From positions 1,293,001 through 1,357,000 of the forward strand of contig NZ_CANNEZ010000001.1 in the NCBI RefSeq assembly GCF_947503795.1: 64,000 nucleotides of DNA, given 5' to 3'. The notes under the pieces are model-generated. The model ran no database searches. It was not told where the DNA came from and saw only the letters and a program-made list of their open reading frames with translations. The DNA is from an uncultured Jannaschia sp. GTDB taxonomy: Bacteria > Pseudomonadota > Alphaproteobacteria > Rhodobacterales > Rhodobacteraceae. The position numbers were made by a program, and so were the translations under genes. Shown here in pieces: positions 35,689 through 54,229 of the stretch. Position 1 is the first letter of the stretch. The number at the start of each line of letters is the position of its first letter.

Positions 35689-37752
35689 ATGCAGCCCTCG
35701 GGCACCATCGGTGGCGTCACGCGACCGGGTGCGGTCGATCGCGCCGTGCTGGCCCTGCACGACCTTCGGGGTCGCAGGCTGCCGTGGCTCGCGCTCGCGT
35801 TCGGGACGGGCATCGGCGCCTATTTCGCCTTGCCGGTCGAACCCGGTGCCGCGGCGGCCCTTGCCCTGAGCGCGGCCACCGCGATGCTCCTCGTCGTCGC
35901 GTACCTCACCCGCCACGGGATCGGGTTCCTCGCACTCTGGACCGCCGTGGCGCTCGGCGGGGTGCTGGCGGGCCAGGCGCGCACGGCCCTCGTCGCAGCA
36001 CCGGTGCTGGACTTCCGCTACTACGGCGCGGTCGAGGGCCGGATCCGGATCGTCGACCGCTCGGCTTCGGGCGCCGTTCGCCTGACGCTCGACCGCGTGC
36101 GCCTCGACGGGGTGCCCCGGCACGAGACGCCCGCGCGGGTCCGCGTGTCCCTCCATGGCGAAGGCGGCGCTGTCCCCGCCCTCGGCACATGGGTGATGAC
36201 GACGGCGCATCTGTCACCCCCGGCCGGGCCGACCGAACCCGGCGGCTTCGACTTCCAGCGGCACGCGTTCTTTCAAGGGCTCGGGGCGCTCGGCTACACG
36301 CGCCTTCCGCTCCTGCGGATCGCCCCGCCCGAGGGTGGGGCGGCCCTTGCCGTCTTGCGCGCGCGGATGGCCATCGGGACTGCCCTGCGCAATCGCCTGC
36401 CAGGCCAGCAGGGGGCCGTCGCGGCGGCGATCACCACCGGCGACCGCTCGCATCTATCCGACGAGGTGGTCGCGGACCTGCGCGCCTCGAACCTCGCGCA
36501 TCTGCTCGCCATCTCGGGTTTGCATATGGGCCTCCTCGTCGGGTTCGTCTTCTGGGCCGTGCGCGGCGGGCTGGCGCTGATCCCCCGGATCGCCCTGACC
36601 CGACCGACCAAGCAATGGGCCGCGGCCACCGCCTTGCCGTTCGCGCTGGCCTATCTGTTCCTCTCGGGCGGCACGGTCGCGACTCAGCGCGCCTTCGTGA
36701 TGGCCGCCGTCATGCTGGGCGCGGTCCTCGTGGGCCAGCGCGTCCTCTCGATCCGGAGCGTGGCCATCGCGGCGCTGCTGATCCTCGCCTGGCATCCCGA
36801 AAGCCTGATCGGCCCCGGCTTCCAGATGTCCTTCGCCGCGACCGGCGCGCTGGTCCTCGCCTTCCGCGCGCTGTCGGGCCCGGAGCGGTCGAAATGGATG
36901 ACCGGCTGGCGCGGCGTCTTCGTTTCGCTGCTCCTCTCCTCCATCGTGGCGGGGGCCGCGACCGCGCCCTTCGCCGCCTATCACTTCAACCGCATCGGAC
37001 AGTTCGGCGTGTTGGCCAACCTCCTCGCCGTGCCCGCGATGGGGTTCGCGGTAATGCCGATGCTCCTTCTCGCGCTCCTCCTCTGGCCCATCGGGCTAGA
37101 GGGGCCGCCGCTGGCCATCGCGGGGGCGGGCATCGGCTGGATTCTCGAGGTGGCGGCGCGGGTGGCGGACATGCCCGGCGCGGTGCGCACCATCGCGGCG
37201 CCCGACCCGTGGGTCCTTCCGCTTCTCGGGGTGGGCATGACGGTGATCGGATGCGCGATCGGCCGGACGCGCCTCGTGGGCGTCGCGGTCCTGATGGTCG
37301 CGGGCGCGCTCTGGCTGCAAGGGGGGCGGGCGGAGGTGCTGATCGCCGAAACCGGGCGCCTGGTGGGCATCACGGGGCCCGAGGGACGCTGGCTCGACCG
37401 CGAGAAGGGGGCCGGCTTCACCGCCGAGGCGTGGCTCGAGAATGACGGCGATCCGACGGGTCAGGCGGCGGCGGCGACGCGCGAGCGGCCCGATCTCGAA
37501 CCGCTCCCGGCGATCCATATCGCGCGCGGCAAGCGGGACCTTCCGGCCGAGCTGGATGCCTGTCGGCGGAGCAATGGGTGGCTGGTAACGCCGCTTCCCT
37601 TCGAGGGCGCGGCCGAGACCTGCCGCGTGATCGACAGCCGCCTGTTGCGGCGCACGGGGTCGATTGCGTTGACCGTCAAGGACGGGGTCGTGGTCGAAAC
37701 CCATGCACGGGCCGTCCAGGGGCGTCGCCCCTGGGTGCCCGGGACGCGATAG
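35689..37752 (+). CDS. comEC: DNA-uptake channel protein ComEC/Rec2
   Basis: A 687-residue polytopic inner-membrane protein that carries single-stranded DNA into the cytoplasm during transformation. The N-terminal region to about residue 220 has three hydrophobic segments and an OB-like DUF4131 domain. The competence domain follows, with the signature [17 protein letters not shown] near 270, ending about residue 545 after several helices. The usual C-terminal metallo-beta-lactamase domain is absent, as in other alphaproteobacterial forms. GGAGGAGGG precedes ATG 35689. Uptake of gene transfer agent DNA in relatives uses this protein. It is followed by a hairpin and convergent lexA. Confidence 0.92.
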
Positions 37753-37791: not shown

Positions 37792-38481
37792 TCAGTAGCT
37801 GCGGATCAGGCCGACCAGCCGTCCCTGGATGCGCACCTGATCTTCGCGCAGAAGGCGCGTCTCGTAGGCCGGGTTCGCCGCTTCGAGCGCGATCATGCCC
37901 TTCTGGCGGCGGTAGCGCTTGAGCGTCGCCTCGTGGCCATCGACCAGCGCGACCACGATCTCGCCGTTGTCGGCCGAGGACTGCTCGCGGATCACGACGA
38001 CGTCGCCGTCGTTGATGCCCGCGTCGATCATCGAGTCGCCCTTGACCTCCAGCGCGTAATGGTCCCCGCCCCGGTCGAGCATCTGGCCCGGCACGGCGAC
38101 GTGGTGCGACACCTCGCTGATCGCCTCGATCGGGACACCGGCGGCGATCCGGCCCATCACCGGCACATCAGAGGCATCGACTTGCACGGGGCGGGCGGCG
38201 GGGGGCGTGGACTGCGGACGGTCGCCTTCGATCACACGGGGCACGAAGCCAGACGCCGCGGCCAGATCGTCCGGCAGGCGCGTGATCTCGATCGCACGGG
38301 CGCGGTGGGCGAGGCGGCGGATGAAGCCCCGCTCCTCGAGTGCGGTGATGAGGCGGTGAATCCCCGATTTCGATCGCAGGTCCAGCGCATCCTTCATCTC
38401 GTCGAAGGAGGGCGGTACGCCATCGCGCTGCACGCGCTTGTGGATGAAGGCCAGGAGGTCGCGCTGTTTCCGCGTGAGCAT
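37792..38481 (-). CDS. lexA: LexA repressor
   Basis: A 229-residue SOS repressor. The winged helix-turn-helix occupies residues 1-65 ([37 protein letters not shown]). The RecA-stimulated self-cleavage site is Ala114-Gly115 in RIAAGVP, and the Ser-Lys dyad is Ser150 ([11 protein letters not shown]) and Lys188 ([11 protein letters not shown]). The C-terminus RLVGLIRSY is typical. ATG 38481 is preferred, with AGGA 8 bases upstream; a TTG at 38511 is in frame but less likely. A LexA box lies 40 bases upstream, giving autoregulation. It follows moeA on the same strand with a 99-base gap. Confidence 0.97.
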
Positions 38482-38520: not shown

Positions 38521-38535
38521 GTTCTAGAAAGGTTC
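38521..38535 (-). promoter_or_regulatory. LexA box GTTC-N7-GTTC upstream of lexA
   Basis: GTTCTAGAAAGGTTC is an exact match to the alphaproteobacterial LexA consensus GTTC-N7-GTTC established in Rhodobacter, between the moeA stop and the lexA start. Confidence 0.85.
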
Positions 38536-48900: not shown

Positions 48901-53315
<4,415 letters not shown>

Positions 53316-53351
53316 GCTGTAGGGCGGAACAAACGCGGTTTGTTCACCTAT

Positions 53352-53366
53352 GTTCTAAAAAAGTTC
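53352..53366 (+). promoter_or_regulatory. LexA box GTTC-N7-GTTC upstream of the 41-residue gene
   Basis: GTTCTAAAAAAGTTC is an exact match to the alphaproteobacterial LexA consensus, the same as the box upstream of lexA here. It lies 37 bases past recG and 64 bases before the small-protein start. Around it are another GTTC (53342) and three GAAC (53373, 53379, 53391), making a dense quasi-symmetric cluster. Confidence 0.75.
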
Positions 53367-53430
53367 TTTACAGAACGTGAACAGATATGAGAACAAAGGG
53401 TCAACAAGAGCAGCCGAGGAGGTCCAGCAA

Positions 53431-53556
53431 ATGGCCCGGAAGATCATCCGCACCGTCACCCGCATCGAACGCGAACCGGTGACCGACATCCTCGGCGGCA
53501 TCTGGCTCGTGACCCTCGTGATGGGTCTGCTTCACCTGCCCAGCCTGCTCGCCTGA
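53431..53556 (+). CDS. 41-residue membrane protein, putative SOS-regulated
   Basis: A 41-codon gene with GAGGAGGT 8 bases before its ATG. The peptide begins MARKIIRTVTRIEREPVTD, a basic, probably cytoplasmic head, and continues as one membrane helix (ILGGIWLVTLVMGLLHLPSL). Codon choice matches neighbouring genes. A perfect LexA box lies upstream. Small single-helix membrane peptides under LexA control include SidA of Caulobacter (29 residues), which blocks division through FtsW/FtsN, so a division inhibitor or another SOS membrane effector is a fair inference. I see no detectable identity with SidA. A strong terminator lies at 53716-53754. Confidence 0.75.
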   Translation: MARKIIRTVTRIEREPVTDILGGIWLVTLVMGLLHLPSLLA

Positions 53557-53715
53557 TACCCGGTTTCTGCCCGCGTCCCGTTCATTTCCCGGTTCGTTCG
53601 ATCCCCGTCGTCCGACCCTGGCCCGTCCGCCTGTCCCCGCGTGACGCCGCCGCCGATCCTCCGCCTTTCCCGTGCGGAACATGATCATTGCCCGATGAAC
53701 GGGATGCCACTTCAC

Positions 53716-53754
53716 CCGCCGCCTCCGCCCCACGGAGTGCGGCGGTTTTTTTTT
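53716..53754 (+). terminator. Strong intrinsic terminator
   Basis: CCGCCGC-CTCCG (53716-53727) pairs with CGGAG-T-GCGGCGG (53733-53745), a 12-bp stem with a single bulged T and a CCCCA loop, then nine T residues (53746-53754). It is the best intrinsic terminator of the window, 160 bases past the 41-residue gene and 20 bases before the convergent IscU-like stop. The 160-base stretch in front contains no gene and may be a 3' untranslated region or small RNA. Confidence 0.9.
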
Positions 53755-53773
53755 GGCGGAGCGTATGGGCGGG

Positions 53774-54229
53774 TCAGGAGGCCGTGTGCCGCGCGTCGGA
53801 GAGCTGATCGAGGGCGGCTAGCGTGGAATCGAGCGCCAGGAGGATCGACGCGTGCCGATTGCGGTAGTCGCGGGCAGGCTCCAGCACCTCGTAGCCATCG
53901 AAGGGCGCATCGGGGACGGGGCCACCGGCGGTCAGCATGGCGTGCAGCCCGTCGCGCGCGGCCTGCACCTCGTCGCGCGTACGCCCGATCATCACGGCAC
54001 CCGAGATCGCGGCAGAGGCTTGGCCCAACGCACAGGCCTTCACGTCCTGCGCGTAGCGGGTGATGCGGCCGTCCTCGGCGTCGAGCGACACCGTCACCGT
54101 CGAGCCGCAGAGCGGCGAGCGCGTCCGCGCGGTCGCCATCGCGCCGTCGAGCGTGCCCGCATGGGGCATGTCGGCGGCAAGTGCTAGGATGCGGCCCGAG
54201 TAGAGCTTGATCAGATCGGCGTCGGACAT
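53774..54229 (-). CDS. IscU/NifU-like Fe-S scaffold protein lacking one ligand
   Basis: A 151-residue protein of the SufU/IscU fold. It keeps SPLCGSTVTV and the second conserved motif KACALGQASAAI, but the third cysteine is replaced: the helix reads RDYRNRHASILLALDS, with Ala-Ser where canonical scaffolds have Cys. It therefore has only two of the three cluster ligands and may not hold a 2Fe-2S cluster in the canonical manner. It diverges from hisI. Homologues with the same loss are, as I recall, common in Rhodobacterales, so it is likely a genuine subfamily and not a decayed gene. Confidence 0.82.
   Translation of the reverse strand: MSDADLIKLYSGRILALAADMPHAGTLDGAMATARTRSPLCGSTVTVSLDAEDGRITRYAQDVKACALGQASAAISGAVMIGRTRDEVQAARDGLHAMLTAGGPVPDAPFDGYEVLEPARDYRNRHASILLALDSTLAALDQLSDARHTAS

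Follow-up and report, generated by a model that had tools for sequence, protein, structure and literature searches.

How bacteria of the family Rhodobacteraceae halt cell division while their DNA is under repair has, to our knowledge, no established answer. The question is raised by a very short gene downstream of recG in the window, which here means the whole 64,000-nucleotide stretch of DNA from an uncultured Jannaschia sp. that was analyzed. An original prediction, made from this DNA, had described the gene as a LexA-controlled membrane peptide and proposed it as the SOS division inhibitor of the Rhodobacterales, in which it saw no clear SulA. The absence of SulA was borne out, as none of 61 family genomes gave a match while E. 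coli was the sole positive among 14 controls. The following sections consider whether the gene is real, how it is likely to be controlled, what else its transcript carries and which function fits best.

Organization of the Unit Downstream of recG

The locus is predicted to form a compact unit composed of a LexA operator, a membrane micropeptide, a structured RNA and a terminator (Table 1). Comparison of the Rhodobacteraceae loci read showed that all four parts, as recognized in the sequence, are conserved together, and an SOS-controlled membrane-peptide unit is almost certainly present. The 41-codon gene and its strong ribosome binding site were found as proposed, with the stop codon at 53554-53556. 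The gene was also said to end before the window's best terminator, and a hairpin with a tail of nine T residues does lie there. Past the terminator, on the minus strand (53774-54229), lies a gene for a SufU/NifU_N-like protein that scores below curated cut-offs (TIGR01994, 44.7 bits against 92.5) and has a relative at 12 of 30 loci compared.

Table 1. Features of the unit downstream of recG and its presumed regulator (positions within the window).
Feature	Position	Strand	Basis or remark
lexA, presumed regulator	37792-38481	-	TIGR00498, 188 bits against a cut-off of 111
recG, conserved upstream neighbor	51231-53315	+	NF008164, 1082 bits against a cut-off of 785
Predicted LexA operator, GTTC-N6-GTTC-N7-GTTC	53342-53366	+	Kept in relatives; perfect N7 box at 53352-53366
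Probable promoter	53363-53396	+	Suggested by conservation across 126 aligned loci
-35-like TTTACA	53367-53372	+	At the operator edge
TGAGAACAA	53388-53396	+	Conserved; near the -10 position
Ribosome binding site AGGAGG	53417-53422	+	8-nt spacer to the ATG
Gene for predicted 41-aa single-pass membrane peptide, including stop	53431-53556	+	Relatives, pN/pS, AlphaFold2 helix
Structured 3' RNA	53557-53715	+	Fold, swap test in 107 of 128 loci, covariation in 24 relatives
CTGCC element	53567-53571	+	Within the 3' RNA, ahead of helix P1
CTGTCC	53631-53636	+	Within the 3' RNA, enclosed by helix P1
Intrinsic terminator, hairpin of 7 + 5 pairs, then nine T	53716-53754	+	Conserved in alignments of relatives

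Distribution of the Peptide Gene and Its Linkage to recG

The original prediction had proposed a search for the peptide and its box after recG in related genomes, and this search found both to be widely kept; the loss of peptide or box in relatives, which would have counted against the prediction, was thus not observed. Each of the 19 further genomes searched within the genus has the peptide (E 8e-6 or better), and a profile built from 23 peptides matched 280 of 394 family genomes, sampled at almost one per genus, at E 0.1; the other 114 remained unmatched. A total of 128 loci were then read, comprising 20 of the window's genus and the best-scoring 108 of 278 matches in other genera, a choice by which the sample leans toward conserved cases. 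The peptide gene directly follows recG on the same strand in 127 of these loci, with recG not found within the stretch in the one exception (L074), and an exact box lies 70-110 nt before the start codon in 126, being missing in two (L039 and L109).

A search that started from the promoter led to the same genes. In a collection of 84,980 species genomes, at least 118 stretches match the box-plus-promoter pattern, and among the 80 loci listed, 79 encode the peptide and 78 are located no more than 400 nt past recG. The titles of these 80 include Roseovarius, Ruegeria, Sulfitobacter, Leisingera, Celeribacter, Rhodovulum, Rhodobacter and Paracoccus, all of which we take to be genera of the Rhodobacteraceae, the remaining titles being unresolved Rhodobacterales and alphaproteobacterial bins. 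Among 385 genomes of the class, strong peptide matches (E <1e-13) occurred in five, all of them family members, and no credible relative was found outside the family. Weak matches in 19 non-family genomes (E 0.002-0.05) all fell in open frames of at least 123 aa and were rejected as relatives.

The Predicted LexA Operator and Promoter

The perfect GTTC-N7-GTTC box, GTTCTAAAAAAGTTC, stands exactly where it had been placed and is formed by the latter two of three GTTC half-sites, which begin at 53342, 53352 and 53363. The additional half-site, 10 nt 5' of the box, had been missed in the first reading, even though its four letters are kept in 114-121 of 126 aligned rows, as had the conserved TTTACA and TGAGAACAAA on the 3' side. 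A logo of the 126 loci aligned on the box gives the common pattern GTTC-N6-GTTC-N7-GTTCTTTAC, with TGAGAACAAA further downstream; GAACAA is present in 122 of the 126, at one of three neighboring positions. An inverted repeat upstream of the operator (GAACAAACGCGGTTTGTTC, 53327-53345), similar to repeats in several loci of the genus, is possibly an extra operator.

The window contains four GTTC-N7-GTTC boxes against a mean of 1.33 in shuffled DNA, and since 4 of 100 shuffles also reached four, the motif taken by itself argues only weakly for a LexA site. It could accordingly be supposed that a chance open reading frame lies beside a chance box, given that four boxes per 64 kb are not far above the expectation from shuffling. 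Such a coincidence is contradicted by the conservation of both peptide and box in the genus, the family, the loci read and the promoter-pattern loci; it was therefore rejected, and its probability is regarded as negligible. The box is judged real because 126 of the 128 loci keep it at its distance before the peptide start.

Genome-wide, the pattern occurs 75 times compared with 27 for its reversed form. The lexA gene, 15 kb from the peptide gene, carries a box of its own, GTTCTAGAAAGGTTC, at 38521-38535, about 40 nt upstream of its ATG, and the 150 nt preceding this genome's RecA match contain two further boxes. The promoter of the peptide gene thus shares its box type with lexA and recA and retains it in orthologs, and GTTC-N7-GTTC is the motif reported for Caulobacter SOS genes in the available part of PMC12700426. 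On these sequence grounds, control of the predicted single-helix membrane peptide by LexA is strongly supported. Beside lexA lies a further gene (35689-37752), which resembles comEC.

Sequence, Selection and Predicted Structure of the Peptide

The 41-aa product, MARKIIRTVTRIEREPVTDILGGIWLVTLVMGLLHLPSLLA, had been called unannotatable, and indeed no Pfam or NCBIfam family fits either the window peptide alone or a set of 56 diverse members. Stray matches appeared in one or two members at E 0.011 or worse, and the SulA family (PF03846) matched neither the peptide nor its 55 relatives. Across 15 loci of the window's genus, pN/pS is 0.40 (uncorrected, pS 0.55), indicating purifying selection, and the fractions of differences between pairs of loci are 0.29, 0.14 and 0.49 for the first, second and third codon positions. 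Together, these values lead to the conclusion that the peptide is a translated, selected protein. Its length is 39-44 aa in 124 of the 128 loci. D19 and L34 are invariant in the 56 diverse members, with M1, G22, L26 and P37 kept in at least 90%, and in a separate set of 41 members D19, G22 and P37 are invariant.

The window peptide contains one hydrophobic stretch (19-residue Kyte-Doolittle maximum 1.85), and a 19-residue hydropathy of at least 1.6 is reached in 127 of 128 peptides. AlphaFold2 models a single helix over residues 3-40 (mean pLDDT 77.5, pTM 0.40), which is confident over residues 21-40 only, with block pLDDT values of 94 and 89 there compared with 59 and 68 over residues 1-20. 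The single membrane helix of the original prediction is thus supported by the hydrophobic stretch and by the model, and the product is predicted to be a small inner-membrane protein with one helix, as is SidA. The basic head, also part of that prediction, is found in the window peptide but is not universal, since the segment ahead of the hydrophobic stretch carries a positive net charge in just 86 of the 128 peptides (mean +1.0).

A rival reading is a membrane-active peptide of the kind represented in E. coli by TisB and DinQ, both SOS-controlled small inner-membrane peptides. Such a peptide would lower the proton motive force and slow growth or favor persistence instead of acting on a divisome protein, and the LexA control, the size near 40 residues and the single transmembrane helix are consistent with it. 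TisB is restrained by the antisense RNA IstR. DinQ, a single-helix peptide whose effects include membrane depolarization, is held in check by the antisense RNA agrB, according to the portion of PMC3567139 consulted. The leader of the present gene, however, is poorly conserved outside the promoter and ribosome site, with less than 0.4 bit per column at positions 56-74 of the ungapped, box-aligned loci and no more than 0.44 bit between -40 and -12 when aligned on the start codon. It consequently gives no sign of a conserved antisense partner, as judged by leader conservation alone. The fixed D, G and L-P positions point instead to a specific contact, and the 56 members gave no credible Pfam match to toxins of the TisB/DinQ kind. 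A depolarizing peptide is considered unlikely.

A Structured RNA in the 3' Region

The first reading had missed a structured RNA between the stop codon and the terminator, which makes up about half of the predicted transcript and is alike across genera. The segment 53558-53753 has a folding energy of -82.6 kcal/mol (z -5.69 relative to 200 shuffled versions), and a long closing helix, P1, joins 53573-53586 with 53694-53707 in 14 pairs. The two strands of this helix were exchanged between loci in the 107 of 128 loci from which both could be cut out. Strands from the same locus pair at a mean of -25.0 kcal/mol, compared with -18.0 when swapped between loci and -16.5 when shuffled, and 58 of the 107 loci rank in the best 5% of their own swaps. 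Strands of one locus therefore pair better than swapped ones, which indicates covariation in the closing helix.

Plain RNAalifold on MAFFT alignments of the 3' regions gave a patchy result. The closing helix was recovered in group A but was absent from the group B result, and in group C, to which the window's genus corresponds, it was reduced to the outer six pairs, for which reason the swap test and a hand-written structure were used. In 24 relatives from other genera, the closing helix, a GCAUC hairpin and the terminator are paired in 92.5% of cells. Changes on both sides occur in 16 of 32 pairs (seven in the closing helix, three in the hairpin and six in the terminator). The covariation score of 0.225 exceeds that of shuffles (0.132; reached in 0 of 500) and that of slid structures (0.04-0.10), the slid controls leaning toward the hand-written structure because it was taken from one of the 24 rows. 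We conclude that the region very probably is a functional structured RNA.

A search of Rfam with window positions 53200-54200 and 20 loci returned nothing at the gathering score, so that no known RNA family could be assigned. The weak matches in the window (E 0.29 and 0.6) and those to Yersinia Ysr141 in four of the 20 loci (E 0.003-0.78) all lie far below gathering scores. The idea that the CTGCC element is a genome repeat was dropped, as WCTGCCYGCRTCC occurs once in the genome. In one member of the genus (L012), the element starts 127 nt after the stop codon, compared with 9-47 nt in most others, and the 3' region of this locus carries an insertion.

The 3' regions share a short motif, CTGYCY, present at 3.3 copies per region compared with 0.52 in shuffles (188 regions) and found at least once in 186 of the 188, with two copies in the window. 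Its C residues are unpaired at a frequency of 0.79, against 0.43 for C elsewhere. The motif was picked after the sequences had been seen, and the repetition of an exposed element favors the existence of a partner, either RNA or protein.

Joint Occurrence of Peptide and RNA

With a covariance model of the RNA (R1) and a threshold of E 0.01, matches were obtained in 111 of 149 genomes of the family, at least eight of which had supplied training rows; below E 1e-5 the number was 99 of the 149. Outside the family, matches were confined to three of 142 genomes of a class sample, at E 7e-4 or worse. On the window itself the model scores E 1.7e-8, in an alignment that is anchored by the terminator and puts the closing helix in the wrong place; the helix of the window is consequently based on the swap test, the fold and the mapped coordinates.

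In 19 genomes the RNA was matched without a match to the peptide profile, and 13 of these were read. By eye, the RNA is preceded by a similar small frame in 12 of the 13; an exact box accompanies 11 of these, and in L302 the box has N6 spacing. The remaining match (L307, E 0.001) lies inside another gene and was rejected as false. No RNA without the peptide was thus seen in the 13 of 19 candidate genomes read, and since 12 of them hold diverged copies, the count of 280 peptide-bearing genomes in 394 is an underestimate. In L300 (genome G077), box, peptide and RNA occur together with no recG in the 1.6 kb fetched, and the unit seems to have moved there as one module. Genome G118 shows four R1 matches, one strong (6e-14) and three weak (0.001-0.008), the weak ones being either extra copies or chance.

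The excess of CTGYCY with its exposed C residues, the covarying closing helix and the stability of the window fold might suggest that the RNA is the main product, that is, a small RNA of the SOS response that would base-pair with target messages or bind a protein through its CUGYCY loops, with the peptide secondary, as in dual-function coding RNAs. A small coding RNA, Pos19, is known from the related phototroph Rhodobacter sphaeroides; by description only, this stress-induced RNA of 219 nt resembles the present transcript but belongs to the RpoE regulon rather than the SOS response (PMC5036791, in the part available). The post hoc choice of the motif, the purifying selection on the open reading frame and the peptide-like frame in all but the seemingly false case of the 13 candidates argue against the RNA as main product, and this is thought improbable.

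Relation to Known SOS Peptides and Proposed Function

The layout had been likened to that of SidA of Caulobacter crescentus. Compared by description only, the two are alike in LexA control through GTTC-N7-GTTC, very short length, inner-membrane location and alphaproteobacterial origin. We know of no conserved 3' RNA in SidA. At 29 aa, SidA is an inner-membrane protein that inhibits division by acting on FtsW (PMC4211646, as far as the accessible text reports), whereas the peptides described here mostly have 39-44 aa, and the division block and FtsW contact have been shown for SidA only. Caulobacter DidA is likewise a small damage-induced membrane protein that inhibits division but is SOS-independent and driven by DriD, as stated in the same part of PMC4211646. 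YneA of B. subtilis and SosA of S. aureus, described in the excerpts consulted as SOS-induced division inhibitors, differ as Gram-positive proteins. Both are larger and have an outer part. LexA control and a single helix do not by themselves imply a division block, given that DinQ leaves filamentation unchanged in the section of PMC3567139 that describes it.

Because of the analogy with SidA, a brake on septation is thought likeliest, and a SidA-like division inhibitor is put forward as the best mechanism, at somewhat less than an even chance. Upon DNA damage, RecA filaments would induce self-cleavage of LexA and free the promoter at the operator, from which a transcript of roughly 350 nt would be made. 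Its product of about 40 residues would enter the inner membrane with the head inside, and the helix, which carries the fixed D, G, L and L-P residues, might dock onto a transmembrane protein of the late divisome, with FtsW, FtsI and FtsN as candidates by analogy with SidA. Such docking would delay septation during repair. The 3' RNA combines a long-range closing helix with repeated, exposed CUGYCY motifs; it could control the lifetime or translation of the message, which it might steady or silence, or it could work in trans as an SOS small RNA.

Alternatively, the peptide might modulate another membrane system during the SOS response, for instance a CtrA-pathway sensor kinase, a protease or the release of gene transfer agents. 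R. capsulatus LexA is reported to act on the cckA promoter and on CtrA-controlled traits (PMC6473078, in the portion available), but no genomic link to CtrA-pathway, protease or gene transfer agent genes was seen and the fixed neighbor is recG, so that such a role appears quite unlikely.

No description of the peptide or the RNA was found in the open-licence literature searched, nor in the accessible parts of PMC6473078, PMC4211646, PMC12700426, PMC3567139 and PMC2864571. The peptide gene is not among the targets that the available text of PMC6473078 names for LexA in Dinoroseobacter shibae, and the main text of that paper makes no mention of recG.

Returning to the proposed brake on septation, we tentatively suggest that the locus may give rise to a dual-function, Rhodobacteraceae-specific SOS transcript, in which a membrane micropeptide and a covarying, multi-loop CUGYCY small RNA that pairs with other RNAs or binds a protein would provide a division checkpoint together with post-transcriptional SOS control; this combined reading is possible rather than probable. 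With one gene, one promoter and a nearly fixed place, the proposal can be tested in any tractable roseobacter. The locus further suggests that an SOS message carries a structured RNA. For the Rhodobacteraceae, a large family of marine and phototrophic bacteria in which SulA was missing from every genome searched, the unit after recG may be the missing brake on cell division.
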